From: Pegea sp. RAD2-039
Lineage: Eukaryota; Chordata; Thaliacea; Salpida; Salpidae
NCBI GenBank assembly: GCA_034620365.1
Contig: JAQGEQ010000213.1
Location: 744,001-808,000, forward strand
Direction: 5' to 3'
DNA length: 64,000 nucleotides
This document shows, in pieces, positions 1 through 31,876 of this stretch. Made by a program: the position numbers and the translations under genes. A model generated the notes under the pieces. The model was not told the DNA's origin, ran no database searches, and saw only the letters and a list, made by a program, of their open reading frames with translations. Position 1 is the stretch's first letter. Every line of letters begins with the position of its first letter.

Positions 1-3000
1 ATGAATGTGAACAAAAGACTTATATTTGTGATAACAATGCTAACTGCTTGAACACGAATGGTAGTTACGAATGTAGCTGTAAGATCGGATTTTCTGAAAA
101 TGGTACAGTTTGTTCAGGTAAAAAAATGAATTAATTTAGTGTTTACGAGTTTTAATTTACTTTTTTTATTCTACAAACGTTCAACTCTGCTTTCTTATAG
201 ATATTAATGAATGTCTTGAAGGGACCTACGCTTGTAATTCTTCTATAACAGAGTGTATTAATTCTGAAGGCTCCTACTACTGTAAATGTGTAGATGGCTA
301 CTTCAGTGATCAAGAAAAATGCATAAGCACGTTTTATTTATTTTACATCATCGTCAGAATCTCATAAGCAAATAAGCAATATATTTAAAAGCAAAAATAG
401 AGCAATTAAAAAAGTTTGTCAAAAACTTTTAGACATAAGTTAATGATCTCACGAACAAGCTTGGTTTAAACTTGCAATAATTTTCGTTTATTATCATTAG
501 ATACAAATGAATGCTTGGGTGGTACCAGCGGATGTGATGTAAATGCAGCTTGTGTAGATACAGAAGGAAGTTATAAGTGTTATTGTCTTGAAGGCTATAC
601 AGGAAATGGTTTTGAGTGTACTGGTAAATTTGCTGTTAATTTTTACCTATTTCATTAACTACATTTTGTCACTATTTGGTAAATTTTCCGTGATACATAT
701 AAATAATATATATTTTGATAGATACCAATGAATGTGAGTTGGATCCAAACATCTGTGGACTTGGTGGTGAATGCTTTAACACTTTAGGATCTTACAACTG
801 CAAATGTTTGACTGGTTTTGAAGGCAGTGGGAAAAACTGTACAAGTAAATTACAATGATCTTGCAATTGCTGAAGTTCTAGATATTTACACAGTTTTTTG
901 TATAAAGCTATTTTCAGATATTAATTGCTACATTATTTCGAAAAAGAACATAATTTGTTTTACAGATATTAACGAATGTAAAGTGGAATATGGACTGTGC
1001 AGTTCTAAAGCAGATTGCATAGATACTATAGGGAGCTTTCAATGTACCTGTAAAAGTGGATTTAGAGGGAATGAAACTAACTGTACAGGTAAAAACATTT
1101 TGACACTTAACGAATTTTCTACAAACAAAGCTTTGATAGACATCAACGAGTGTGAAGAGAATATACATAAATGTGCAATCAATTCTAAGTGTTCAAATAA
1201 TGAAGGTTCATACAGATGCACGTGTTTACCAGGATTTTTCAAAACTGGAAAAACATGTTCAGGTTAACTTAGAACTTTACATTGAAATCTTTCAGGATGC
1301 GGAAATTAAAAAAGTCAAATAAATTGTTTTGAAGTGGTTTTATATTTATAAGGCATTTATTGAGTATGCTTTTACAGATATTGATGAGTGTTGTTCCTTT
1401 TTACACAACTGCCACTCTCTTGCAACTTGTGTAAATACTGAAGGAAGTTACCAATGTCGCTGCTTCAGTGGTTATTATGGAAATGGGACTCATTGTGAAG
1501 GTTTTGAGTTTTTTAATGATTCAGAGTACTTCGTAAAAAGGTTTTATATCTTATCAAAAAATATATGCAACAGAAATTGATGTTCTTGCTGATGGACAAA
1601 TAATGTGTCATCCTAATGCTTATAAAGTTAAAACTAATGGTTCTCAAACTTGTGTGTGTCAAAATGGTTATGAAGGAAACGGCATCAACTGTACAGGTTC
1701 TCAAGATAACTTATGTTTGTTTTCATAGTGCATGCGTAACTTCTATCTACAGTCCAAGATTTTATAAAATAATAAGAATTCCTAAAATCATAATAACTAG
1801 TAGTATATATAAATAGTAGTATTAGAAGTATATTTATTATTAAAAAATAATATTTTATTGCATATTTTTGTAAAAAAGATGTCAACGAGTGCGATGATGA
1901 TCCTTGTGATGTAAACTCCAAATGTTATAACTCAATTGGCAGTTTCCAGTGTGTATGTACCACTGGATTTTATGGAAATGGAATAGTTTGTCGGGGTAAA
2001 ATGCTCAGTCTTTTTAAACTCTCAACCATCTCATATTATGTTATAATCTAAAGCAAACCAAAACTCAACAACTATACATAGACTACTACTATCAAAGTTA
2101 ATAGAAAAAATAGTGTTTTTTAAATTATACTTTGTTTAGATATCAATGAATGTTTGTATGATGATTATGCTGGTAAGTGTCATAAAGATAGCAATTGTGA
2201 AAACAATCCTGGGAGTTATAACTGTAAATGTTTTACTGGATTTAGAGGAAACGGATTTAGTTGTTCAAGTAACTCCAACTTTCAACACTGTTACTGAGTT
2301 TTCTTCAAAGTTTTATTTTTGTTTCTAGACATAGATGAATGTGATGAAGGAAGTGACTCTTGTGATCAACATGCTGATTGCAGCGATACATTTGGTGGCT
2401 ATGAGTGCACTTGTCAAAGTGGTTATGAGGGAAATGGTTTTAACTGCACTGGTAAAATATAAATATTTTTAGAAATTAATCTATAGTAGATGCGATATTT
2501 AAGTTTTTCGTTTCTCTTCTAGATATAGACGAATGTGCATCAAATACTACCAATAACTGTCATGCTGCTGCAAAATGTATCAACATTGAAAAATCTTATT
2601 CATGTGAATGTAACTCTGGCTATTACGGAAATGGCTTTAGTTGCACAAGTTAGTTTTAGTTTCTTTGCTGACTAATCAACAATTATTTCGCTTTCTTCTA
2701 TTTAATCTTTTTTATTTGAATACTTCCCACAGATATAGATGAGTGCAAAAGCTCTACTCTCATTAGTGGTTGTGATATCAATGCTTACTGCCATGACCTT
2801 CCTGGTAGTTTCGAGTGTACTTGCAAGTCTGGTTACCAAGGAAACGGATATGACTGCTCAGGTAAAACGATAAGTTTCTGATAGAAACAACAAAGTCTGT
2901 CTGTGAATACATATCAAGATTTGATTTTTAAACTAACATTTAATTTACAGATATTGATGAGTGCGAAGCAGAAATTCATGATTGTCCATTGAATTCAGTT

Positions 3001-5738: not shown

Positions 5739-8700
5739 TTAATCATTATCTTCATCACTACTGTCATCAGAAGAAGAGGAATCATTTGCTCCAGATGTCT
5801 TCCATTGTTTAGCCAGTGATAAAAGTTTAAGGGTTGGTTGAGAGCTTTCATCCTCAGGAAATATGTAATCTGTGAATTCCTCCCAACCAGCATCCGTCTA
5901 AAAAAATGATTACAAAGTAAGCAGCTGAAAAAGGTGAACAGAAACAGCAGAACAAATTTGCACAACTATCTCGAGAACAAACTTACTCCATCTTCTGTAA
6001 TTACTTTTCTTCTCTTTTTGATTTGTTTAGGTAATTGCTTGGTGACTTGTTGTAGCGAATCACTATCTCCATAATCACTCTGTTGCATATCATTTTAAAT
6101 ACTTTTTCGATTTTGATTTAACATTTATCAACTACTTAGAACAACTTTTGCTTAAATAAATAACAGAAAATTAAATACTTCAAAACTTTGCCATTCTTTC
6201 AACAAGCAAATTCTGTCCTCTTTAGAGTCTCTTTCGCGCAGATTATGATTTGCTTTCTGATATATTTTTCTGGTAAATTTGAAGCAATACGTTGTTAAGA
6301 GAGAGTTAATTGGTTTAAATATGAAAGTGATATTTTAGAAATACACACAAATCAAAATAATATCACCATTTTATATTATAGAAAAACAAAGTTATATGTG
6401 AAACTACCTTGTCCGTTCAAAACCTTCTTTAGTACCAAAAGAAGCTTCGAAATTTGCATAACTCAACCAAACTTTTATGTGTTCCGTTCGTTCTAGTAAT
6501 CGTCGATATAAATCTCTCACCTTACCAAATTCTTTTTGGTCTTTTTCAAACTGAATATAAGATTTCCAAAGGTTCTGAACAAAATATTATATTAAGGTTT
6601 AAGCAAGTAAAAAAAGTTTGAAAGATTTACTTCAGGCATATCAAGTCGATTTTGTTTAACAGCTATCTCATATATACCGCGAGCCCGTTCAATGTCACCA
6701 AGCATACTTTCAAGCTCGGCAAAATGGCACCAAGTGTTGCAATTATCAGGAGAATATTCTAAGAAACGACCATACAGAGTTCGACAGCGGTCAAATTCAC
6801 GCAATTCTAATTCCATCTCGATATAGGATTTAAACAGTTTGTCTTTAGGACACTTTCCAATAGAAACCCCCTGTAAATAAAGCAGTTATAGCTCGCTGAC
6901 TTGACACTACAACACGATAAGCCTACCATGATTTTTCTGGCTTTTTGTACATCTTTTTGTCGTAGTTCAAATCTACTAAACATAATCCATAATTTTGCAA
7001 AAGTGAATTTTTTATGAGGTATAGTATCTAAACAAACTTTATAAATCTCTCTGGTTCTATCAATATCCTGTGAAATGATAAATATGTAAAGTGATTGGTA
7101 ATAATTAGAATAACAACATTTATAGAATCAAAATCATAGAATCAAATTTACTGAGCTTATTAGTTACCAAATCTAACAACAAATAAATTATTAAAAAAGT
7201 AATTCTTTTGTAAAACTAAGTAAATGTTTAAATACTTTTGTAACTAATTCTTCAAAAACTGCATAATAAATCCAAAGATAAACATATCGTCTCCAGTAAC
7301 GTTTTTCTTCTGTAGGAGGAATGTTTGCAATTGCTCTTTCATAAACCTCTCTTGTAGATTCCACATTTCCTTCTTCTTCAGATAATCGTAAATAACCGAA
7401 CCAAGCATCATAATTCAGCGGATTTTTCTAAGAATTAACAAGAAATAAGAAACATTCAACAGAAACATTATCTTAGATCACCTGAACTTCGTTCTCGTAT
7501 TGTTTTTTTCTTTTATTTACGATCACATCTTCGATACTTGTACGGGTCCCGAACTTTTTCTCAAATACAGTATAAGCTTTGCGTAATTCTTCGTCTTCAA
7601 CCTTTTCAATCGCGTATTTGTAGATCACTCTTGCTCTATCATGCTACGAAAAAAAAAAGAAATAGAAAGTTTGAAGATGAGCTTCTGATGATGAGCAGAT
7701 GATCAGAGCTGAAGATGTAGCTAACCTCTTTTTGACGCTCTTCAAATTTCCCAAATGAAATAAAGAGTGTAGGAGATAGAAGGTCATCACCGTAAAACTC
7801 TACAGCACGTTCGAAAATTTCTCTAGCTTTGCCAGCAAAATGAAACCGTTCTTCGAACTTAGCATATTTCACCCAATTCTTTACTTCAGGATGAACAATA
7901 ATAAACGACTCGTAGATGTTTCGCGCACGTTCGATTTCCTTGCATCTTATTTCAAAGTTGATGTAAGAATGCCAGGCTTGTTCATCAGGTTCCCATTTCA
8001 TCCAACGTTCGAACACCTGTCTACAAGCTCCTATATTCTCCAAAACTTCTTCCATATACACGTACTTGTACCTTTTACAATTTTTCAACAATTATTAAAA
8101 TCTAATCAGCGAATTTCGATTTCTTTTGTAGTAGAAACTCACCACAGCTGGTTTGCACGAGGTAAAATAGTCACACCTCGATCCCAAATATTACGAGCAT
8201 GATTGACTTGTGCGTTTTTCATTTCCATTTCAGCATATTTCAACCACAATGGTATGCTTTTATATGATACGTCAAGAGCTCTTTCATATACAGAACGTGC
8301 TCTGAAAGATATAGAGGTCAGTAAAAAGTTGTGTCTTTACTAGAAATATTGCTTCTACCTTGGCCATTCTTTCATCTTATCTTCAAATGCAGCATATCTT
8401 AGCCAACTTTGTAATGAAGATCTATTCTTTCGGATCATGTCCTCAAAATACTAATTGTATAAAAATGTTATTAGATACAAGAGTAAAAAACAGAGTGAAC
8501 ATTAAAAAATACCTTTCTCTGTTTCAATTTATATTCTTGTAATTCTTCTTTGTCAGTTATCTTCCTTTTCGGAGGCTAAAAATTATTGGTAAGATGTATT
8601 AAAATTGCTAAAAGTTTTAAAGTACTTACAAAACTAAAATGTTATTTGATCAAGCTAGTTGGTATGAATAAACAAATATTAGATCAAAAAGTTTAAACAT

Positions 8701-14215: not shown

Positions 14216-14506
14216 GTTACTTTGATAAAGTAGTCCAACTGAATAAGAGCCACGTTTTGTTCACTGATTTAACCCTCCAATCTACACTTCGGGAATGATT
14301 AATTTCTCTGTATATAAAGATCGTATATTGAAGGATCTAGCCAAACACCCAAGTCAACTTGTTACTTTGATAAAGTAGTCCAACTGAATAAGAGCCACGT
14401 TTTGTTCACTGATTTAACCCTCCAATCTACACTTCGGGAATGATTAATTTCTCTGTATATAAAGATCGTATATTGAAGGATCTAGCCAAACACCCAAGTC
14501 AACTTG
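14216..14506. repeat. Perfect tandem duplication of 145 bp
   Basis: Copy 1 runs 14216-14360 and copy 2 runs 14361-14505, with no mismatch seen by eye. Each copy begins GTTACTTTGATAAAG and ends AAGTCAACTT. It is non-coding. Complete identity points to a recent duplication or an assembly duplication. Confidence 0.93.
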
Positions 14507-16564: not shown

Positions 16565-19500
16565 ATGAATGCCGAAAGTTGGGAGAGTAAAAAAGAAAAT
16601 GTTGAGCCACTCCGTTCTGGAAGGAGTGCTAAATCATTATCTGCTGCCTTAGAAGTTAGTTTTTCAAATCAGTTTTATCCTTAAATTTCTCAGCCTCATT
16701 TCAACTGATTTATTTGTAAATATTTGTAGCTAACAGAAGAAAATAGAGAAAAATTAAAAAAAGAGAAAGAAATATTTGAAGAAGAAATTCTTGCTGATAG
16801 TAACAAAAAAGACCCTCTACTTGTTTGGTGCAGGTTTGTTGAGCATGTACTCATTTAGCATCTAATAAAAAGATAATGACTTCAATTCATATTTTAATTT
16901 CATAACCAGAAAAATCAAAAAGATGGTTGATAAAAACCTTCTTGATAGGCATCTGACAAACAAATACCTTTTCAGTTTGATAGTTATAGGGTGATAAGGT
17001 CTTTAAAGGATTTTTTGCTTGTTTTAAACTTGCAAATGATTTAATTCAATTTTATACTGAACAATCTATTTCTTAATATGTTATAAAAACCTAATTTAAT
17101 GGAGGAAAATATAGATTACTTCTTTTAATTCATATCTTTTAGATCCTTTTTTTTTCTAGTAAATTATGTATTACTTTACAGATATGTAAAATGGTCTTTA
17201 AAAAATTTCCCTTCTGGTGGTAACATAAATTCTATGATAGAATTACTACTAAGAGTGGTGAAGCAGTTTTGGAACTGTGATATGTATAAGTGAGTAAATC
17301 AATTAAAAAACTAGATATAAAGTAAAATGTGGTTTTAATTGACAGGAACGATAATCGTTACATACAATTATGTTTGTTATACCAATATAACATTGCAAAA
17401 ATTGATCATGAAAGAAGCATGCAGATATTTTCTCAGATGAAAGCCAAAAATATTGGGACTAAAGCTGTTGACTTTTATATTACTTGGGCTGAGGCTTTAG
17501 AAAAACAGGATCAGCTGTTAGAGGCAAAAAAAGTTTTTGATCTCGCTGAAGAAAGTAAAGCTCAGCCGGTGAATAAATTGAAGAAAATGCGAAAGTTAGT
17601 TGGGTTATTTCAGTATTAAATTATATTGTTTCTTTTATAATATGTTTTACTTTAAGAAAGCTCTTTAATGTCTACGAGTTATAAGCTACAACTTATTTGC
17701 AGAGCTTTTGATATGAGGTCAGCTCGTTCAATCTTTAAAAAAATGAATGATGGAGAAACCACCAATAAAACTCCTTCAATAAAAGATGTGTAAGTTCTTC
17801 ATTTGATGTGAAGAAAAGATCAATAAAAAATTGGTTGTTTATAGGGAACGCAAACCTTTAGGAGGTCTGAAAACAAAAGGACCTGAAAAGAAAGTTGGAA
17901 TAAAACGCCCCGCAGAAATTAGTAAGATCTACAGCTGTGATTTCAGTAGGTTTATTCCAATTTCCATTTCAGCTCCAGTCAAAATACGGCAACAAGCAAA
18001 AACTTCTAGCAGTACTCCAAGAAACAACAAGGGGCTAGAGATATTTGTCGAAAAAAAAGATTGTATGATAAAAGCTACTCCAAACGCTGCAGACATCCAA
18101 CTTGCTGGTCCAGGACAAGAAAATTTTGGTGATAATCCATCTCAGTGGAAGGGAAAGCGAGCCAAGCAGTCTTTTATTTTGAGCAGTCCATCAGAAGTTG
18201 CTCCAATCATTAAAAAATCTTCTTCTTTTGTCATCTATTCAGAATGTAATCAAGAAGGTATTTTCAACGTTGAGGTGTTTGAAATGATGTTGATGTTTAT
18301 CTTTGTTGATAGATAAAAACAAAGCTGCTTCACCTCTTGATAAGGTTCAAGCGGAAAAGGTGGTAGCCCCCGAGAAAAGTATTAACAAAGCACCTGAAGT
18401 TGATAAAAGTGCCAACAAAGAGAGAAGTGTAAGTTTATTGCGAATATTCCAATAACAGTAATGAGAAAGTTGTGAAACCATTTATAGAAAAGTATGTACC
18501 CGTTGGACCTTATTTACGTTGGCTCTGATGAGTTTCAAATGGAGGAACACAGAGCTATGATTTACAAGATGATGAAGATGAATGAAGATGACATGAAAAA
18601 AGACAACGAAGATTTACAGAGAGAACTTCAACGGCTTCGGTTAGAAAATGAAGAACAAAAAAGTATAATAGAACAAAAAACATCAAATGAATGCTTGCTA
18701 AAAAAGGTTAGATTTTCTACCGTTAACCTTAAGTACATCAACTCTTCTCTTTTAAAGAAAATCGAAGATCTTTTAAATGAACAAGCTACTACTATAAACG
18801 TCCAGAACGAAGCTACTACGATAAACGTCCAGAGCGAAGCTACCACTTTGACTGAAAGCCAAATTCTCCGTAAGTTGTGGTAGTCAAGTTAATCTAATCG
18901 AGTTTCAACTAACTAAATAATTGCAGAAACATCTTTTACTGCTGAAGAATTTATGGAAGATACTTTTGTGGAATCATCGGTTATTAAACATTTAATTTCA
19001 GTTTCAAAAAAAGATGACATCTTTGAATTACAAGTTGTCGTCTGAATGACATGTAGCTCATCAATTTAAGATTTAATTATAGATAGGCAACTTTTACTAA
19101 CTTCTACCCAACCCACTGTTGATGATTTCAATCTTGTTTTACAGCTTTCCAAAACAACTGACGGTTTCTGCAGCAAATTAGACCAATCTATTTTTTCAAC
19201 TGGAATTAATGATAGTATCAATTATAAAAGTATTAATAAGGGTTATGGAGATGAAGATACTGTTGGTTTACTTGATTTGTTAGTCATTCCAACAAAACCC
19301 GCAGTTCAAGATGAATGTTCAAACATTTCAAACAAACAAGATTTGATATTTACTGAGAAGATTGAATCTGTAGATGTAGAAGACCAACATTTGATAAATT
19401 CTTCAACAAACAAATTAGACCTCTCTAGTTTTCATGATTCAATGATGTCAGCTGAGAAGAAGATTGGATCTGTTGATGTAGAAGGTCAAAATTTAATAAA

Positions 19501-22500
19501 GTCTTCAACAAAGAAACAAGGACTCTCTATTTTTCATGATTCAATGATGTCAGCTGAGAAGAAGGTTGGATCTGTTGATGTAGAAGATCAAAATTTGATA
19601 AAATCTTCAACAAAGAAACAAGACCTCTCTAGTTTTCATGATTCAATGATGTCAGCTGAGAAGAAGATTGGATCTGTTGATGTAGAAGGTCAAAATTTAA
19701 TAAAGTCTTCAGCAAAGAAACAAGGACTCTCTATTTTTCATGATTCAATGATGTCAGCTGAGAAGAAGGTTGGATCTGTTGATGTAGAAGATCAAAATTT
19801 AATAAAATCTTCAGCAAAGAAACAAGGACTCTCTATTTTTCATGATTCAATGATGTCAACTGAGAAGAAGATTGGATCTGTTGATGTAGAAGATCAAAAT
19901 TTGATAAAATCTTCAACAAAGAAACAAGGACTCTCTATTTTTCATGATTCAATGATGTCAACTGAGAAGAAGATTGGATCTGTTGATGTAGAAGATCAAA
20001 ATTTGATAAAATCTTCAACAAAGAAACAAGGACTCTCTATTTTTCATGATTCAATGATGTCAACTGAGAAGAAGATTGGATCTGTTGATGTAGAAGATCA
20101 AAATTTGATAAAATCTTCAGCAAAGAAACAAGGACTCTCTATTTTTCATGATTCAATGATGTCAACTGAGAAGAAGATTGGATCTGTTGATGTAGAAGAT
20201 CAAAATTTGATAAAATCTTCAGCAAAGAAACAAGGACTCTCTATTTTTCATGATTCAATGATGTCAACTGAGAAGAAGATTGGATCTGTTGATGTAGAAG
20301 ATCAAAATTTGATAAAATCTTCAACAAAGAAACAAGGACTTTCTATTTTTCATGATTCAATGATGTCAGCTGAGAAGAAGATTGGATCTGTTGATGTAGA
20401 AGATCGAAATTTGATAAAATCTTCAACAAAGAAACAAGGACTCTCTATTTTTCATGATTCAATGATGTCAACTGAGAAGAAGATTGGATCTGTTGATGTA
20501 GAAGATCAAAATTTGATAAAATCTTCAGCAAAGAAACAAGGACTCTCTATTTTTCATGATTCAATGATGTCAACTGAGAAGAAGATTGGATCTGTTGATG
20601 TAGAAGATCAAAATTTGATAAAATCTTCAACAAAGAAACAAGGACTCTCTATTTTTCATGATTCAATGATGTCAACTGAGAAGAAGATTGGATCTGTTGA
20701 TGTAGAAGATCAAAATTTGATAAAATCTTCAGCAAAGAAACAAGGACTCTCTATTTTTCATGATTCAATGATGTCAACTGAGAAGAAGATTGGATCTGTT
20801 GATGTAGAAGATCAAAATTTGATAAAATCTTCAACAAAGAAACAAGGACTCTCTATTTTTCATGATTCAATGATGTCAGCTGAGAAGAAGATTGGATCTG
20901 TTGATGTAGAAGATCAAAATTTGATAAAATCTTCAGCAAAGAAACAAGGACTCTCTATTTTTCATGATTCAATGATGTCAACTGAGAAGAAGATTGGATC
21001 TGTTGATGTAGAAGATCAAAATTTGATAAAATCTTCAGCAAAGAAACAAGGACTCTCTATTTTTCATGATTCAATGATGTCAACTGAGAAGAAGATTGGA
21101 TCTGTTGATGTAGAAGATCAAAATTTGATAAAATCTTCAACAAAGAAACAAGATCTCTCTATTTTTCATGATTCAATGATGTCAACTGAGAAGAAGATTG
21201 GATCTGTTGATGTAGAAGATCAAAATTTGATAAAATCTTCAACAAAGAAACAAGATCTCTCTAGTTTTTTAGAAGTATGTGATAATTTTCGGAGCTCTCT
21301 ATTTTTCATGATTCAATGATGTCGTTGGATCTGTTGATGTAGAAGATCAAAATTTGATAAAGAGAAATGATTCAATGATGTCAAATGAAATAGATAAAAT
21401 CTTCAACAAAGAAACAAGATCTCTCTAGTTTTTTAGAAGTATGTGATAATTTTCGGAGCTCGAACGTGGCATGTAACGATAAAGAGAAAGATCAAGCAAA
21501 TGAAATAGATCATTACGACTCAGATGCTGAAAATAGGTTTAAATTTTTGATAATTTGCTTACAAACTGAACCCGACTCCTACAACAATTAGCTTGTTTTT
21601 AGACCGCCTGTCGGTTATTCAACTGAAAAAAGAACTCGAAAAATCTCTGGAATCCTGAAACCAGCAATTGGATTTCAACTTGAAAGTGATGAGGAAGAAG
21701 ATGAGGATGGACATCAAGTAATGATTTACTTTACAACTTTTATCCAACATAATTTTGATATTTCAGCTCAATGTTGAAACAGCTTTCGAAGGAGTCACCC
21801 CTTTTACTGAAGTTAAAACGCAACCACAAGGTTATTAGTCTTTTTATCACATCATTCAACAATCATCTATACTTGGTTTTTCTAGATCTTTTTGAAGATG
21901 CTTTGATTGGTCAAGCTCCTGAATTTACTCGTTGTATTGCTGATATACCTTCAGATGAATTCAATCTGCAAGGTATAAATGCGGAAAGCACTTCTTTTTT
22001 TCCATTACAAGTCGCTGCCGATCCTCAACCTCCATCTACCTCGAAAGCTTATAAGCGTGATCACAAGATAGTTTCCTTTTTTCATGAAAAAACTCAATGG
22101 TTAGTTTAACTTGGATTTGTAATCAACTAACTTCTGATTTCTTTACTAGCAGTCCAATCATTGAAGCCAATGAATGTTCATCTAAAAGCACGCTGCACTC
22201 AGCTCTTTCAAATCCTGATGAGAAAACTCCAGCTCTTAAATCTAACGCTGATTTAAATTCGTCAGGTTTCTATATCAACTTTTTTCAACTTTCACATATA
22301 CACAATTTGATTTTACCAGTATACCTCACTTCATTTGTAAAAAATCAAGTGAGCGATGACTTTACCTTTATTATCAAACAAGCTGCTGAGGATTCTTACA
22401 CTCAACTAAATGACACTACTGACAGTCGCTTGTTTGTCGGTCTAACTGCATACGACGAAACAATCTGTAACTTCTTATTAACACAACTGCCCTCATCTAT

Positions 22501-23828
22501 TATCAATTGTTTATTCTCAGTGGATGCAGCTAATATAACTCTTGATCATGGCATCAACATTGAACAAAATCCATGGGGTCAACATTCGGTAGCAAGCAGT
22601 AAGTTCGCGGAAACTAAACCTTCCAATGTCCGTATGTACGATACCAATGCGCCCTTAATCAGAAAAAATGGGACCATCACCTTTGGTTTGTAGCCTTCGG
22701 TGCAGACCAGGCAACGTTGTAATCATCTTCATCTGGCAGGTGATGACTTTTGTTTAAATGTGATCGAGAAGATAGCAGAAGGTGGTTGCGCTAAGATTTA
22801 CTTGTCATCATTTCATGGAAACTCGAAAAATAAGCTTGTCATCAAGGTAACGACTTGCGCGTGTTATTTGATGTCATCAGAGGTTGATTTTAGGAAGAGC
22901 AAACATCTTCAGTGAGGGAAGCAAATATGGTGAGCGCTGCTCGATGTCGTTTACTACAATCAGATGAGTTGAAGAACTTCACTGAAATCATTCTTAATTT
23001 CCACTTATGCGCGCAATTCATCAATAAAACTCTCACTGTATACGACTACCACCCCAAAGGCACTCTTCTGGTACAAACTTTCCTTGTATCCCCTACACGC
23101 CCCATTTTCATCTCTTCCTTTGTAGGATTGGGTCAATGCTTGCAGGTTAAGAAAAGTGGACTTCAATCGTCAATTGGTTTGTAAACAGCTGATGGAAGTT
23201 GTTCACGCGCTTCATTGTGTTTCTATCTTGCACGCTGACATCAAACCCGACAATTTGCTGGTAGTAGCAGAAACCAGGTGACGTCATCCCAGTTTCTCGT
23301 GTTACACGCCACTAATTTACATCATAGTGACCACCGTGGGTGTCGTGTTGCCCAGTTGAAACTGATCGACTTTGGACGCGCGATCGACCTCACCTGTTAC
23401 CCTGACAACACAGTCTTTTTAGCGCGATCTCACACCAGCAGTTTTGAATGTATTCAAATGCTTAAAAATAAACCTTGGAATTATCATGTACGTTGCTGCT
23501 GATGATTATCAGCTGATGAAGATACAAATTTGATCTTTGCAGATCGACTTCTTCGGAATTGCTGCAACTTGCTACCAGCTCATTTATCCTCAGTACTTGA
23601 AGCCGAAAAAACTTGGAGATGGCCGATGGGGTACCCCAGAAGGTCGAAAGCAGTAAGTTGACATCTCAATCACTTCTTGCTCTTCATTAAACTGATTTCT
23701 TTTTCAGTTCTCCCTGGGACTCATTTTTTGATGAGCTCCTTAACTTTCCAACTCCAACAAATCAGTCTGTTCCTACTCTGCGACATTCCCCGCTTCCTAA
23801 GCTCATCAAAATGTTCACTCTTTCTTGA
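16565..23828 (+). CDS. BUB1: MadBub-type spindle-checkpoint kinase (BUB1/BUBR1) with amplified ABBA-like repeats
   Basis: This is a kinetochore protein of the spindle assembly checkpoint that binds BUB3 and Cdc20. Exons: 16565-16654, 16730-16833, 17182-17289, 17346-17594, 17703-17789, 17845-17921, 17973-18257, 18313-18428, 18488-18869 (perhaps minus a 51-nt intron 18707-18757), 18927-19033, 19145-21274, 21394-21536, 21603-21717, 21767-21830, 21886-22099, 22150-22265, 22320-22685, 22740-22846, 22894-23070, 23126-23277, 23328-23487, 23543-23652, 23708-23828. Phases agree throughout, giving about 1,840-1,860 residues against about 1,050 in human BUBR1. In order: KEN box (KKENVEPL, residues 10-12), Mad3/BUB1 TPR region to about 160, RKPL D-box-like (215), LEIFVE (260), QEN (287), FVIYSE (324), GLEBS motif around DEFQMEEHRA (375-400), coiled coil, repeat array, SPIIE, then the kinase. 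The kinase keeps VIK, HADIKPDN, DFG, and TSSFE plus KPWNYHIDFFG, as in BUB1. Having both KEN box and intact kinase means an unduplicated MadBub. AATAAA follows at 23906. Uncertain spots are the donor at 19033/19036/19039 and the 21275-21393 intron. Confidence 0.92.
18785..18838 (+). repeat. Two 27-bp coding repeats (EATTINVQ-like)
   Basis: Two adjacent 27-bp units encode ATTINVQNE and ATTINVQSE, followed by a partial third unit (ATTLTES). They lie in the linker after the GLEBS motif and coiled coil of the MadBub protein, just upstream of the large array. They show that this linker has expanded by tandem duplication more than once. Confidence 0.85.
19358..21274 (+). repeat. 102-bp coding tandem array, about 17 full units, with ABBA-like motif
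   Basis: A diverged 99-bp unit (19358-19456) is followed by 17 full 102-bp units (19457-21190) and a partial unit from 21191. Each full unit encodes 34 residues, starting K-K-[IV]-G-S-V-D-V-E and ending [IS]-F-H-D-S-M-M-S-[AT]-E. Sixteen of the 17 have L-S-I-F-H-D-S; unit 2 and the diverged leading unit have L-S-S-F-H-D-S instead. L-S-I-F-H-D-S fits the ABBA-type degenerate consensus [FILV]-x-[ILV]-[FHY]-x-[DE] with a nearby acidic or Ser/Thr residue. Variation between units is almost limited to a few codons (ACA/GCA for T/A, GGT/GAT, ATT/GTT), so the array is strongly homogenised. The array lies inside one long exon and stays in frame. Confidence 0.97.
21275..21460 (+). repeat. Degenerate repeat tail with out-of-phase duplication
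   Basis: Directly after the array, the coding frame meets a TGA at 21317-21319. The following bases are scrambled pieces of the 102-bp unit. A block of about 41 bp ending TTTTCGGAGCTC occurs twice (about 21259-21299 and 21420-21460). The first copy offers a good donor, GAA|GTATGT at 21275. The second copy reads on in frame into the next conserved exon if splicing resumes after the AG at 21392-21393. This makes 21275-21393 a probable intron made from repeat DNA; a frameshift or assembly fault is the alternative. Confidence 0.6.
22740..23828 (+). other. BUB1-type protein kinase domain (C-terminal six exons)
   Basis: This marks the catalytic part of the MadBub protein. The glycine-rich loop is E-G-G-C-A-K-I-Y, the beta-3 lysine is in VIK at the end of exon 22740-22846, and the catalytic loop is HADIKPDN in exon 23126-23277. 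The metal-binding DFG is in LIDFGRAIDL, exon 23328-23487. The activation segment keeps the BUB1-specific pattern TVFLA-x4-TSSFEC-x-QML, then KPWNYH and IDFFGIAATCY. All residues normally needed for phosphotransfer are present, unlike the decayed kinase domains of vertebrate BUBR1. An active kinase is inferred. Confidence 0.9.
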
Positions 23829-29167: not shown

Positions 29168-31078
29168 ATGTGTCAATAACTATGTAAATAAATTAATTTT
29201 TTTGCGTAAAATGCTGAGAAAATTTAAATAAAAAGTATTGAAAAATAAGTTACTAAAATTGAAAATTGCCTATTACTTTTCATCGATCCCGGATTTCTAA
29301 TACTCCTGGCTTACATCTTACATAAAATGCGATAGTCTTATAAAAAGTTAGTTTGACCAATTTACATAGCTAACAAAACTTGTCATTAAGCCAGATTCTG
29401 GACTTAGTTATTTTTATGTTAATTTATTTTGGTCCTAAAATATATATTTTTATATTGCATAGCAAAAAGCTAAAACAATGGCAGTTCTTATGTCTATGAA
29501 TATAAAGACCTTCTTTCCAACTAATGCAACATTTTAGCAGGAATCTTATACGGAACCCATAGCTGATACAAAATTGTTCAGCTTTGACAGATTAAACAAA
29601 AAATCTAAATCCATGATAAATTAAATCATGAGCTCAGTTTTCAAGCTCTTAGCTATAACTATAAATACTATATAGTATAACAATTAATTTTGAAAACAAA
29701 TACTTTTTTCAATGTTTTTGAGTTAATTGAACATTTCTAAAGAGCTAGTAGAATAAAATCTTATTGACGTGAAAGTTATTTGTTATTAAAATAAAAATAT
29801 AAAACGGTCAAAATGTATGTTGCACAATCTATAGAAGCTTGCAAATTTAAAAGTGGCTGGTTTATACCCAGTAGTTGATATTAGTTATTATTACAGGAAG
29901 AATATAAATTCTATTGTTCATATAGTTGCATTTAATAATGATATTTGTATAAAATTTTATGAATTCTTTATTTTTCTTTTAAATGATTGAACAAATTAAG
30001 TTTTATTTAATTGATGAATTATAACTTTTTAAGTTCCTAAACTATTATTTTGCCTTAAAAGTTTTTATATGTATTAAAAATAAAGTTCTTTTTAATTATT
30101 ACAATTGTTTATAAATTAGTTGTCTGATTAATTAATTTATTAACTAGTGAAACTATTTAGAAATGTAAAATTGTAAATATGAATATGGTATTTAAAAATT
30201 TGTTGACTAACTTAAAAATTATTTTTCTAAATAGAAGATATAACTTTCTAAATGTATATTTAGCTTTTTTTTTAGCTTTGTTTCTCTAATCTACAATAAA
30301 CTCTGATAAAAATTTATCTAGAAAGAAATTGAGAAAAAATTGAGAAAAATTATTATAAATAAAGGTTTATACATAATTCTATGTAAAAATTATAAAATCT
30401 ATGATAAAGTAAAATTGCTGATTGTTTATTTATTTTCTTCTATTCTAATTTGCTGTTTTATGATACATTTCTTAGATTTGAGTAGCTTTTATCAAATTAA
30501 ACTAGATTTTAAATATATTTTTGAAATTAAAGTTAGTCTTTGGATTTTTTTCTGTACTTTACCAAATTGTATTTTTCTTATTTTTTTTTTTACTAAAAAC
30601 ACTTACTTTTTACTTAAATGTTTAATTTTATGAAAGTTTAGTAATAAACTTTTTAATTTTCCTTTGTCAAAATTAACTGTTAATAATCAATTTTTTTTAT
30701 CAGGATTTTTATAACTTATTCAATTTTGATTATTGGCTGAATAAGTTAATGCCAGCAATTTATCAAAATTTCCTAAAACACTTGTCACTACCTTTGTTTT
30801 TATAGATTTTTTTATTGATTTATTATTTATTGATTTATAATAATAATAACTATTCTATCTTATAATCTTTTAAGACATATTCTAAAATTGAAGCTTTTCT
30901 ATTATTATTTTTTTAATATTATTTAATTTTACTTTAATATTTTCTGTATTTAATTTGAAATTTACTTTATGTTGATGTTTTATAGAGATAAGTTTCTTAC
31001 CAAGTAGTACATCACAATTTTTATTTGGTCTAATATTCTTTGCGTTTAATTTTCTAAATATTTAGTTGAATATAATTT
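29168..31078. other. Gene-free interval
   Basis: The DNA is very A/T-rich and shows no convincing exon. The 97-codon open frame at 30340-30633 is dominated by Phe, Leu, Ile and Lys codons as expected of A/T-rich noise. The last bases, ATATTTAG followed by TTGAATATAATTT and the ATG, resemble a 3' splice site. Confidence 0.5.
29187..29192 (+). terminator. Poly(A) signal after the orphan 158-residue ORF
   Basis: AATAAA lies 20 bp after the stop codon. In A/T-rich DNA this can arise by chance. Confidence 0.4.
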
Positions 31079-31876
31079 ATGATGGATGCTAAAGCTTTGA
31101 AAGAGTTTATTTTATGGAAGAACAATACCAAAAAGAAGATGGATTTCAGTAAAAAGGGTTCTATTGATAAACCTATTCAAAATTTAATTGAATTTATTAA
31201 TAAACAAGATTGCTTTTATACAACTAGCTCTTGTTCTGGTAGAATAATTATAGTTTCATCTCCCAGTAATCACCAGCCCCAGAAAAAGAATTTAAAGTGG
31301 CTGCTGAACTCTCATGATCTTGTTGATCCTGCTGACATTGTTAAACTGCTTCAGAATGCAGACACTGCTTTTAAATTGAAATATGAACCCTTTATCTTAC
31401 ATGTTAAATGTAAAAATATGGACAACTCTCGCTTAATGCAAACTTCTGCCTTTTCATCAGGCTTTAAAAACTCCGGTCTAACCTTTGGTCATAAAGGAAG
31501 GCAAATGATGTTTTCTGTCAGAGCAACTTCTTCATTGGAGGTTCCTTTAACTGATCAAGATGGAGGCCGACTTACTTCAGATGAGTATATTCAGCATGTT
31601 GTTTCGTTGGCAAATGAAAAAATGAAAGATAATTTTACTAAAATATTGAGGTTTGAAAATACTTTAAAGACACTTTTGAGAAAAAGTAAAGAAATAAAAG
31701 TTAAAAGTAAAACAGAGAATTATTTTGATGATATTGTTGTCTTATCAAATGATGAAAGTCAGACTGAAAAAGTGAAAAAAATATCACAAAAAAACAAACA
31801 AAAATCAAGTTTGGCTGGAGATTATGATGACTGTTTAGATTTTTGTCAAACTATGTTTTCTACTGATGAAATTTAG
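31079..31876 (+). CDS. TYW3: tRNA wybutosine-synthesizing protein 3 homolog
   Basis: TYW3 is the S-adenosylmethionine-dependent methyltransferase that methylates the 4-demethylwyosine intermediate during wybutosine formation at position 37 of tRNA-Phe. It acts in the cytosol. This intronless gene gives 265 residues (human about 259). The family signatures are clear: DFSKKGSID near 22, then FYTTSSCSGRI (45-55), which is the hallmark of the fold. They are followed by KNLKWLLNSHDLV, KYEPFILHVKC, SSGFKNSGLTFG and MMFSVRATSSLEVPL, and the helical EEYI-like segment DEYIQHVVSLANEKM. The C-terminus is a variable Lys/Ser/Asp-rich tail, as in animals. The first of two consecutive ATGs is used. The next gene, SAP30, starts only 213 bp after the stop on the same strand and no AATAAA or ATTAAA lies between. 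Assignment is secure. Confidence 0.95.
   Translation: MMDAKALKEFILWKNNTKKKMDFSKKGSIDKPIQNLIEFINKQDCFYTTSSCSGRIIIVSSPSNHQPQKKNLKWLLNSHDLVDPADIVKLLQNADTAFKLKYEPFILHVKCKNMDNSRLMQTSAFSSGFKNSGLTFGHKGRQMMFSVRATSSLEVPLTDQDGGRLTSDEYIQHVVSLANEKMKDNFTKILRFENTLKTLLRKSKEIKVKSKTENYFDDIVVLSNDESQTEKVKKISQKNKQKSSLAGDYDDCLDFCQTMFSTDEI

Follow-up and report, generated by a model that had tools for sequence, protein, structure and literature searches.

ABBA motifs are described "in repeat arrays" in MAD proteins of moss, basidiomycetes and stramenopiles, one of three contexts given for them by Tromer et al. 2016 (PMC5204127). In yeast, the copy number of another repeated checkpoint motif, MELT, sets checkpoint strength and responsiveness (PMC7292645), and in C. 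elegans, according to a review, Cdc20 recruitment rests solely on the ABBA motif of Bub1 (PMC7614552). No ABBA array in an animal was found in titles, opening lines of abstracts and excerpts of open-licence papers, including excerpts of PMC11286163, PMC5579357 and PMC7608062. Here we describe a 64,000-nucleotide stretch of the salp Pegea sp. RAD2-039 (assembly GCA_034620365.1, contig JAQGEQ010000213.1, forward-strand positions 744,001 to 808,000; hereafter the window), in which a gene for the checkpoint protein MadBub contains a tandem array of 34-residue units, most of them with an ABBA-like motif, LSIFHD. An earlier reading of the window from the sequence alone (the sequence-only reading) had taken arrays of this kind to be undescribed in any MadBub. 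As ABBA arrays have been described in other lineages (PMC5204127), that claim falls, and the Pegea array appears to be a further example of a known device; what is new, within the open-licence literature searched, is that the units are so nearly identical and that they stand in a single-copy, kinase-bearing MadBub of an animal. Multivalent docking of Cdc20 by the array is the best single reading of its function, and on the present sequence data we give it about an even chance of being right.

An in-frame array of near-identical units

Tandem repeats were called with Tandem Repeats Finder (TRF), and the units were then read in register as 102-bp, 34-residue blocks. Over 19356-21269, TRF reported 18.8 copies with a period of 102 bp, matching at 97% and free of indels. 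The sequence-only reading had counted 17 full units, where the register gives 18 and a truncated 19th; its count of 16 units with LSIFHDS stood, the other two (units 1 and 3) reading LSSFHDS, as did its observation of MMS[AT]EK after the motif, found in all 18. All full units are in frame without a single indel between them, and in each of them exactly one of the six frames is free of stops, namely the array's own. The open frame spanning the array (19070-21319) joins in phase to the upstream MadBub exons.

Differences from the consensus amounted to 12 positions in unit 1, 3-5 in units 2-5 and 0-2 in units 6-18, the mean divergence among the last group being 1.4%. The array is a recently homogenised tandem amplification within one exon. 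Since units 2 and 4 have two changes in common that are absent from all other units, and units 3 and 5 have one in common, the sequences suggest that a dimer was duplicated close to the 5′ edge. The motif is preceded by Gly in 15 units (GLSIFHD) and by Asp in unit 18 (DLSIFHD) and units 1 and 3 (DLSSFHD); the stretch before the array reads DLIFTEK and its end DLSSFLE. Asp before the motif, often with Ser at the third motif position, is thus mostly a property of outer copies.

The low divergence among units 6-18 would also be expected of a neutral coding minisatellite. In that case a segment of disordered linker would have been multiplied by unequal exchange, its resemblance to ABBA would be coincidental, and the array would serve as a flexible spacer. 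The complete lack of indels in 18 units speaks against this explanation, whose probability we judge to fall somewhat short of even. When units 8-12 were modelled with AlphaFold from a single sequence, the mean predicted local distance difference test score was 47.5, none of the 170 residues reached 70, and the helices were of low confidence; the 34-residue segment is probably disordered.

Other identities of the unit were also considered. A dispersed-repeat origin was rejected, all 11 genome DNA matches of two units falling in the array or its edge, although such counts are minimum values and a lack of matches elsewhere does not prove rarity. A TPR-like solenoid, prompted by the 34-residue length, was dismissed, a Pfam search of the array frame having returned no TPR. 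The Pfam match of that frame to MafB19-deam (43.4 bits, cut-off 27) was set aside as a sum over repeats, because no single stretch passes by itself, and DUF722 and NikA-like scored under their cut-offs. No PP1, B56, Polo-box, MELT, KEN or D-box motif was seen in the consensus unit. The consensus unit and 16 of the 18 units contain VDVED (VDVEG in units 2 and 4), which we take to be a SUMO-interaction-like pattern, and the array could instead serve another multivalent partner by recruiting SUMOylated kinetochore proteins. This pattern is short and degenerate, and such a role appears very improbable.

The host gene is a MadBub

Exons were linked manually at phase-compatible GT-AG sites, which gave a model of 24 exons (16565-23828) encoding 1845 residues (Table 1). 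Nineteen of the 23 introns are 47-66 bp long; introns 1, 2, 11 and 12 measure 75, 348, 144 and 119 bp. Intron 11 has a weak donor, and an alternative donor at 18980 scores better. The MadBub identity proposed from the sequence alone was supported by the Pfam matches to Mad3_BUB1_I and a kinase and by alignment to human proteins: residues 3-482 align with human BUBR1 (phmmer E 1.2e-26), and the C-terminus with the human BUB1 kinase 5dmz_A (phmmer E 5.3e-33), the catalytic signatures VIK, HADIKPDN and DFG all being present. The N-terminal KEN1, SKKENVEP, aligned with the KEN1 region of both human BUBR1 and the Mad3 chain 4aez_C.

A putative Cdc20-binding cassette lies upstream of the array, with ABBA1 (LEIFVE) starting at residue 274, a KEN2-like QEN at 301 and ABBA2 (FVIYSE) at 338. 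In the human protein the two ABBA motifs begin at 272 and 340, and KEN2 is at 304. In the Pegea gene the KEN2 position (18110-18150) reads QEN, and one of the two flanking Trp residues is seen, after QEN. In cyclin A2, QEN acts as a KEN box (PMC6712056). Given this ABBA1-(Q)EN-ABBA2 order in the model, the array would be an addition to the canonical cassette rather than its replacement. As the sequence-only reading had stated, the array lies between GLEBS and KARD: it is flanked by a segment in exon 9 that we take to be GLEBS and by the KARD-like CSPIIEANECSSKST in exon 17. The human BUBR1 stretch compared with the latter reads SPIIEDSREATHSS, which we assume to be the human KARD.

A TPR search of the 105.7-Mb genome returned one match at E <= 0.001, and the best matches among other kinases were only 32-35% identical to the MadBub kinase. 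Neither a second MadBub nor a Bub1-BubR1 pair was found in these TPR and kinase searches, in which best candidates only were scored in a genome that may be incomplete. With its TPR domain, intact BUB1-type kinase, single TPR match and distant next kinases, the gene looks like an ancestral-type, single-copy MadBub. No orthologue of it was seen, no scan for related loci having been made.

Two further features of the gene were observed. A second small repeat, 27 bp x 2.6 (EATTINVQ), lies at 18779-18847. GVTPFTE (in 21767-21830) was placed by eye where human BUBR1 has STPFHE, and lacks the Ser of S-T-P, a Polo-binding motif that metazoan MadBubs are reported to have.

The 3′ edge of the array

The array frame stops at 21317-21319 unless splicing removes the sequence after 21263 or 21274. 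Within a scrambled patch (21275-21461), the array end recurs at an offset of 164 bp and in another frame, accompanied by fragments of the unit and of the exon that follows (CAAATGAAATAGAT at 21382 and at 21497). The frame shift of the patch separates KARD and the kinase from the array unless the patch is spliced out or misassembled. Removal of 21275-21393, 21275-21411 or 21264-21439 in each case gave one open frame through the kinase end. The donor at 21275 scores 6.2; the acceptor of the first of these introns, used in the model as intron 12, scores -4.0, the lowest of 34 hand-modelled introns, that of the second -0.1, and that of the third 4.3 with a donor of 3.1. What lies at this edge is either an intron of an unusual kind, a fault in the assembly or an allele that is truncated. 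The stop, the duplicated array end and the poor acceptor would all fit an allele that is broken or misassembled here, such that the protein ends after the array without KARD and kinase or the true array end differs. As the exons that follow, including those of the kinase, are undamaged and their introns keep the phase, as the donor at 21275 scores 6.2 and three donor-acceptor pairs restore the frame, and as no second MadBub was found in the TPR and kinase searches to take over, we consider this unlikely; it is compatible with any of the other explanations.

Resemblance of LSIFHD to ABBA motifs

Units were compared with a loose ABBA pattern, [FILV]x[ILV][FHY]x[DE], and with the canonical one, Fx[ILV][FHY]x[DE]. 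The fit to the loose pattern proposed in the sequence-only reading held for 16 of the 18 units. Among 200,000 cyclic shuffled units, 1.4% fit it by chance, and 2.3% fit a looser version tolerating P or M. That a match is this rare per unit argues against an incidental one in a minisatellite, as does the host protein family, which binds Cdc20 and in which additional ABBA motifs are reported (PMC5204127).

The L-x-I-F-x-acid form of LSIFHD recurs in ABBA1 (LEIFVE) of the same protein. In the 637 residues outside the array and domains, LEIFVE and FVIYSE were the sole loose matches (0.30 expected from shuffling, P 0.035), and permitting P or M added VTPFTE (0.40 expected, P 0.008). The human ABBA272 and ABBA340 motifs are non-canonical as well, one of them without Phe, and bind more weakly than ABBA528 (PMC5179498). 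A Leu-first motif could for this reason still bind.

Whether the unit descends from the human-type ABBA3 is a separate matter. The human stretch that the sequence-only reading used for comparison, FSIFDEFLLSEKKN, is indeed found at BUBR1 528-541, and when the unit was aligned locally to human GLEBS-KARD (compared without residues 491-527), it matched best at 529-541. Scores as high were reached by 69% of 4000 shuffled units, and, with the motif fixed and the flank shuffled, by 84% over the whole stretch; in one narrow test, a 30-residue human window starting at 528, the latter figure was 4.4%, and here alone did the flank stand out. A PDB-wide search with one unit (E up to 10) did not return BUBR1, its sole return being a plant glycosyltransferase with SIFHDSM (E 1.1). 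Homology to human ABBA3 was thus not established by either approach, and the proposed expansion of a single ancestral ABBA3 was not supported, the outermost copies being off-pattern as well. The ABBA match is either old or arose inside the amplified unit. A similarity to the human region no better than that of shuffled units, the flanks that add nothing over that region, and the presence of SIFHDSM in an unrelated plant enzyme are all consistent with a minisatellite.

Cdc20 of Pegea and points against docking

Cdc20 of the Pegea genome was joined from 12 exons (E 2.2e-140 against human Cdc20). Pocket positions were taken from two papers and placed via alignment to human Cdc20; we ourselves matched L217, W233, V252 and R253 of Arabidopsis to their human counterparts. 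Four of the seven listed residues are kept (equivalents of L261, W276, V295 and R296), and three are changed (I235 to T, Y240 to H and Y279 to H). Arabidopsis CDC20 has both Tyr-to-His changes too, and ABBA binding is predicted by its authors. With four residues kept, three changed and this Arabidopsis precedent, the ABBA pocket of Pegea Cdc20 is altered, and plausibly still a pocket. Pegea Cdc20 resembles Arabidopsis CDC20 at both pocket tyrosines.

Several observations weigh against docking by the array. The three pocket changes are among them, I235S with Y279E having served to disrupt the pocket of human Cdc20. None of the 18 units fits the canonical F-first pattern, position 1 being Leu in all of them. 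Position 3 is Ser in two of the 18 units and in the 19th, so that the motif is without visible protection, and the outermost copies, LSSFHD (unit 1), LSSFLE (19th) and the pre-array DLIFTE, fail the full pattern; such variation is also what a minisatellite would show. Of the distinct changes among units, 7 were synonymous and 13 were not, for 62 and 226 opportunities; the 13 include one artefact, produced when a two-base codon change was split, and the signal is weak and rough. In one study of human cells, loss of ABBA3 left the checkpoint unimpaired and a silencing role was suggested (PMC5204127), and in another the role of ABBA528 was minor (PMC5179498).

Other features in the window (Table 1) are a TYW3 open reading frame (ORF), a HAT-repeat ORF and calcium-binding EGF repeats. 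The EGF-rich neighbour, the short introns and the similarity to human proteins are in keeping with an animal genome; a search for COX1 gave no hit. A perfect 145-bp tandem duplication (14216-14506, 100% matches) lies outside the MadBub gene.

Table 1. Features of the MadBub locus, the Cdc20 gene and other genes of the window
Feature	Position	Strand	Basis or content
Exon 1, KEN1 box (SWESKKENVEPLRSGR)	16565-16654	+	Gene model; aligns with human BUBR1 and 4aez_C Mad3
Exons 2-5, TPR domain	16730-16833, 17182-17289, 17346-17594, 17661-17789	+	Pfam Mad3_BUB1_I E 1.1e-30, joined model
Exons 6-7	17845-17921, 17973-18257	+	D-box-like RKPL, ABBA1 LEIFVE, QEN, ABBA2 FVIYSE
Exon 9, GLEBS-like segment (MYPLDLIYVGSDEFQMEEHRAMIYK)	18488-18706	+	phmmer alignment to human BUBR1
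Exon 12, holds whole array	19145-21274	+	Both ends predicted; the end is one of several possibilities
18 full 102-bp units (34 aa)	19358-21193	+	16 with LSIFHD, units 1 and 3 with LSSFHD; TRF and in-register reading
Truncated 19th unit, ends DLSSFLE	21194-21274	+	In-register reading
Scrambled patch, candidate 119-bp intron 12	21275-21393	+	Part of frame-shifting duplication of array end
Exons 13-16, acidic linker and GVTPF segment	21394-21536, 21603-21717, 21767-21830, 21886-22099	+	Gene model
Exon 17, KARD-like CSPIIEANECSSKST	22150-22265	+	Gene model
Exons 18-24, NPW segment and BUB1-type kinase	22320-23828	+	Pfam Pkinase E 3.7e-15
Cdc20	Contig C11 (locus L022 719-3023)		Joined from 12 exons
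TYW3 ORF	31076-31876		Pfam
HAT-repeat ORF	7639-8091	-	Pfam
Calcium-binding EGF repeats	812-1267		Pfam

Discussion

Docking of Cdc20 by the array is favoured by the in-frame units with only the array frame open, the GLEBS-KARD position shared with human ABBA528, the LEIFVE form in the same protein and the rarity of chance fits, and further by the arrays described in the family, the lack of a confident AlphaFold fold in units 8-12 and the four pocket residues kept in Cdc20. Provided that the gene is transcribed and spliced as modelled, each interior unit would present one ABBA-class short motif, LSIFHD, and the units would provide further docking sites, each weak by itself, for the WD40 propeller of Cdc20, in the groove between blades 2 and 3. 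Such docking would add to the ABBA1-KEN2-ABBA2 cassette and raise the local concentration of Cdc20 on MadBub, both at kinetochores that are unattached and within the mitotic checkpoint complex, with stronger kinetochore recruitment or slower release as the possible checkpoint effect. The sequence-only interpretation is partly supported in this respect; it contained neither the cassette nor the 3′ frame problem. A bolder version, in which the array is the first animal copy-number-tunable multivalent Cdc20 trap, with about 16 live ABBA sites in the sole MadBub and length-polymorphic checkpoint strength or release, seems distinctly unlikely to us; as the amplification is so recent, unit count should then vary between individuals.

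If the units bind Cdc20, the locus would offer a natural test of ABBA valency against checkpoint strength in a protein that still joins MAD and BUB functions. If they do not, it is a warning against reading short motifs off minisatellites.

Among known systems, the arrays of Physcomitrella, basidiomycete and stramenopile MAD (BubR1/Mad3-like) proteins likewise consist of several repeated ABBA-class motifs in a MadBub-family protein, whereas in Pegea 18 near-identical 34-residue units lie between GLEBS and KARD of a kinase-bearing animal MadBub; these differences were partly checked in the source (PMC5204127). Human BUBR1 ABBA3/ABBA528 (FSIFDEFLLSEKKN) is alike in its position between GLEBS and KARD and in SIF with an acidic residue followed by EKK, and differs in being one copy that begins with F; outside the motif, homology was not established. 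The ABBA1-KEN2-ABBA2 cassette is of the same motif class, and in Pegea LEIFVE and FVIYSE stand around QEN; instead of an array, it has two ABBA motifs in a fixed arrangement on either side of KEN2 (PMC5204127, PMC5179498). The KNL1/Spc105 MELT arrays differ in protein, motif and partner, but they too are made of a repeated checkpoint motif, and how strong and how responsive the checkpoint is depends on the number and strength of the copies. If the Pegea units bind Cdc20, they would parallel the MELT arrays, in which motif number is reported to trade strength against responsiveness (PMC7292645).

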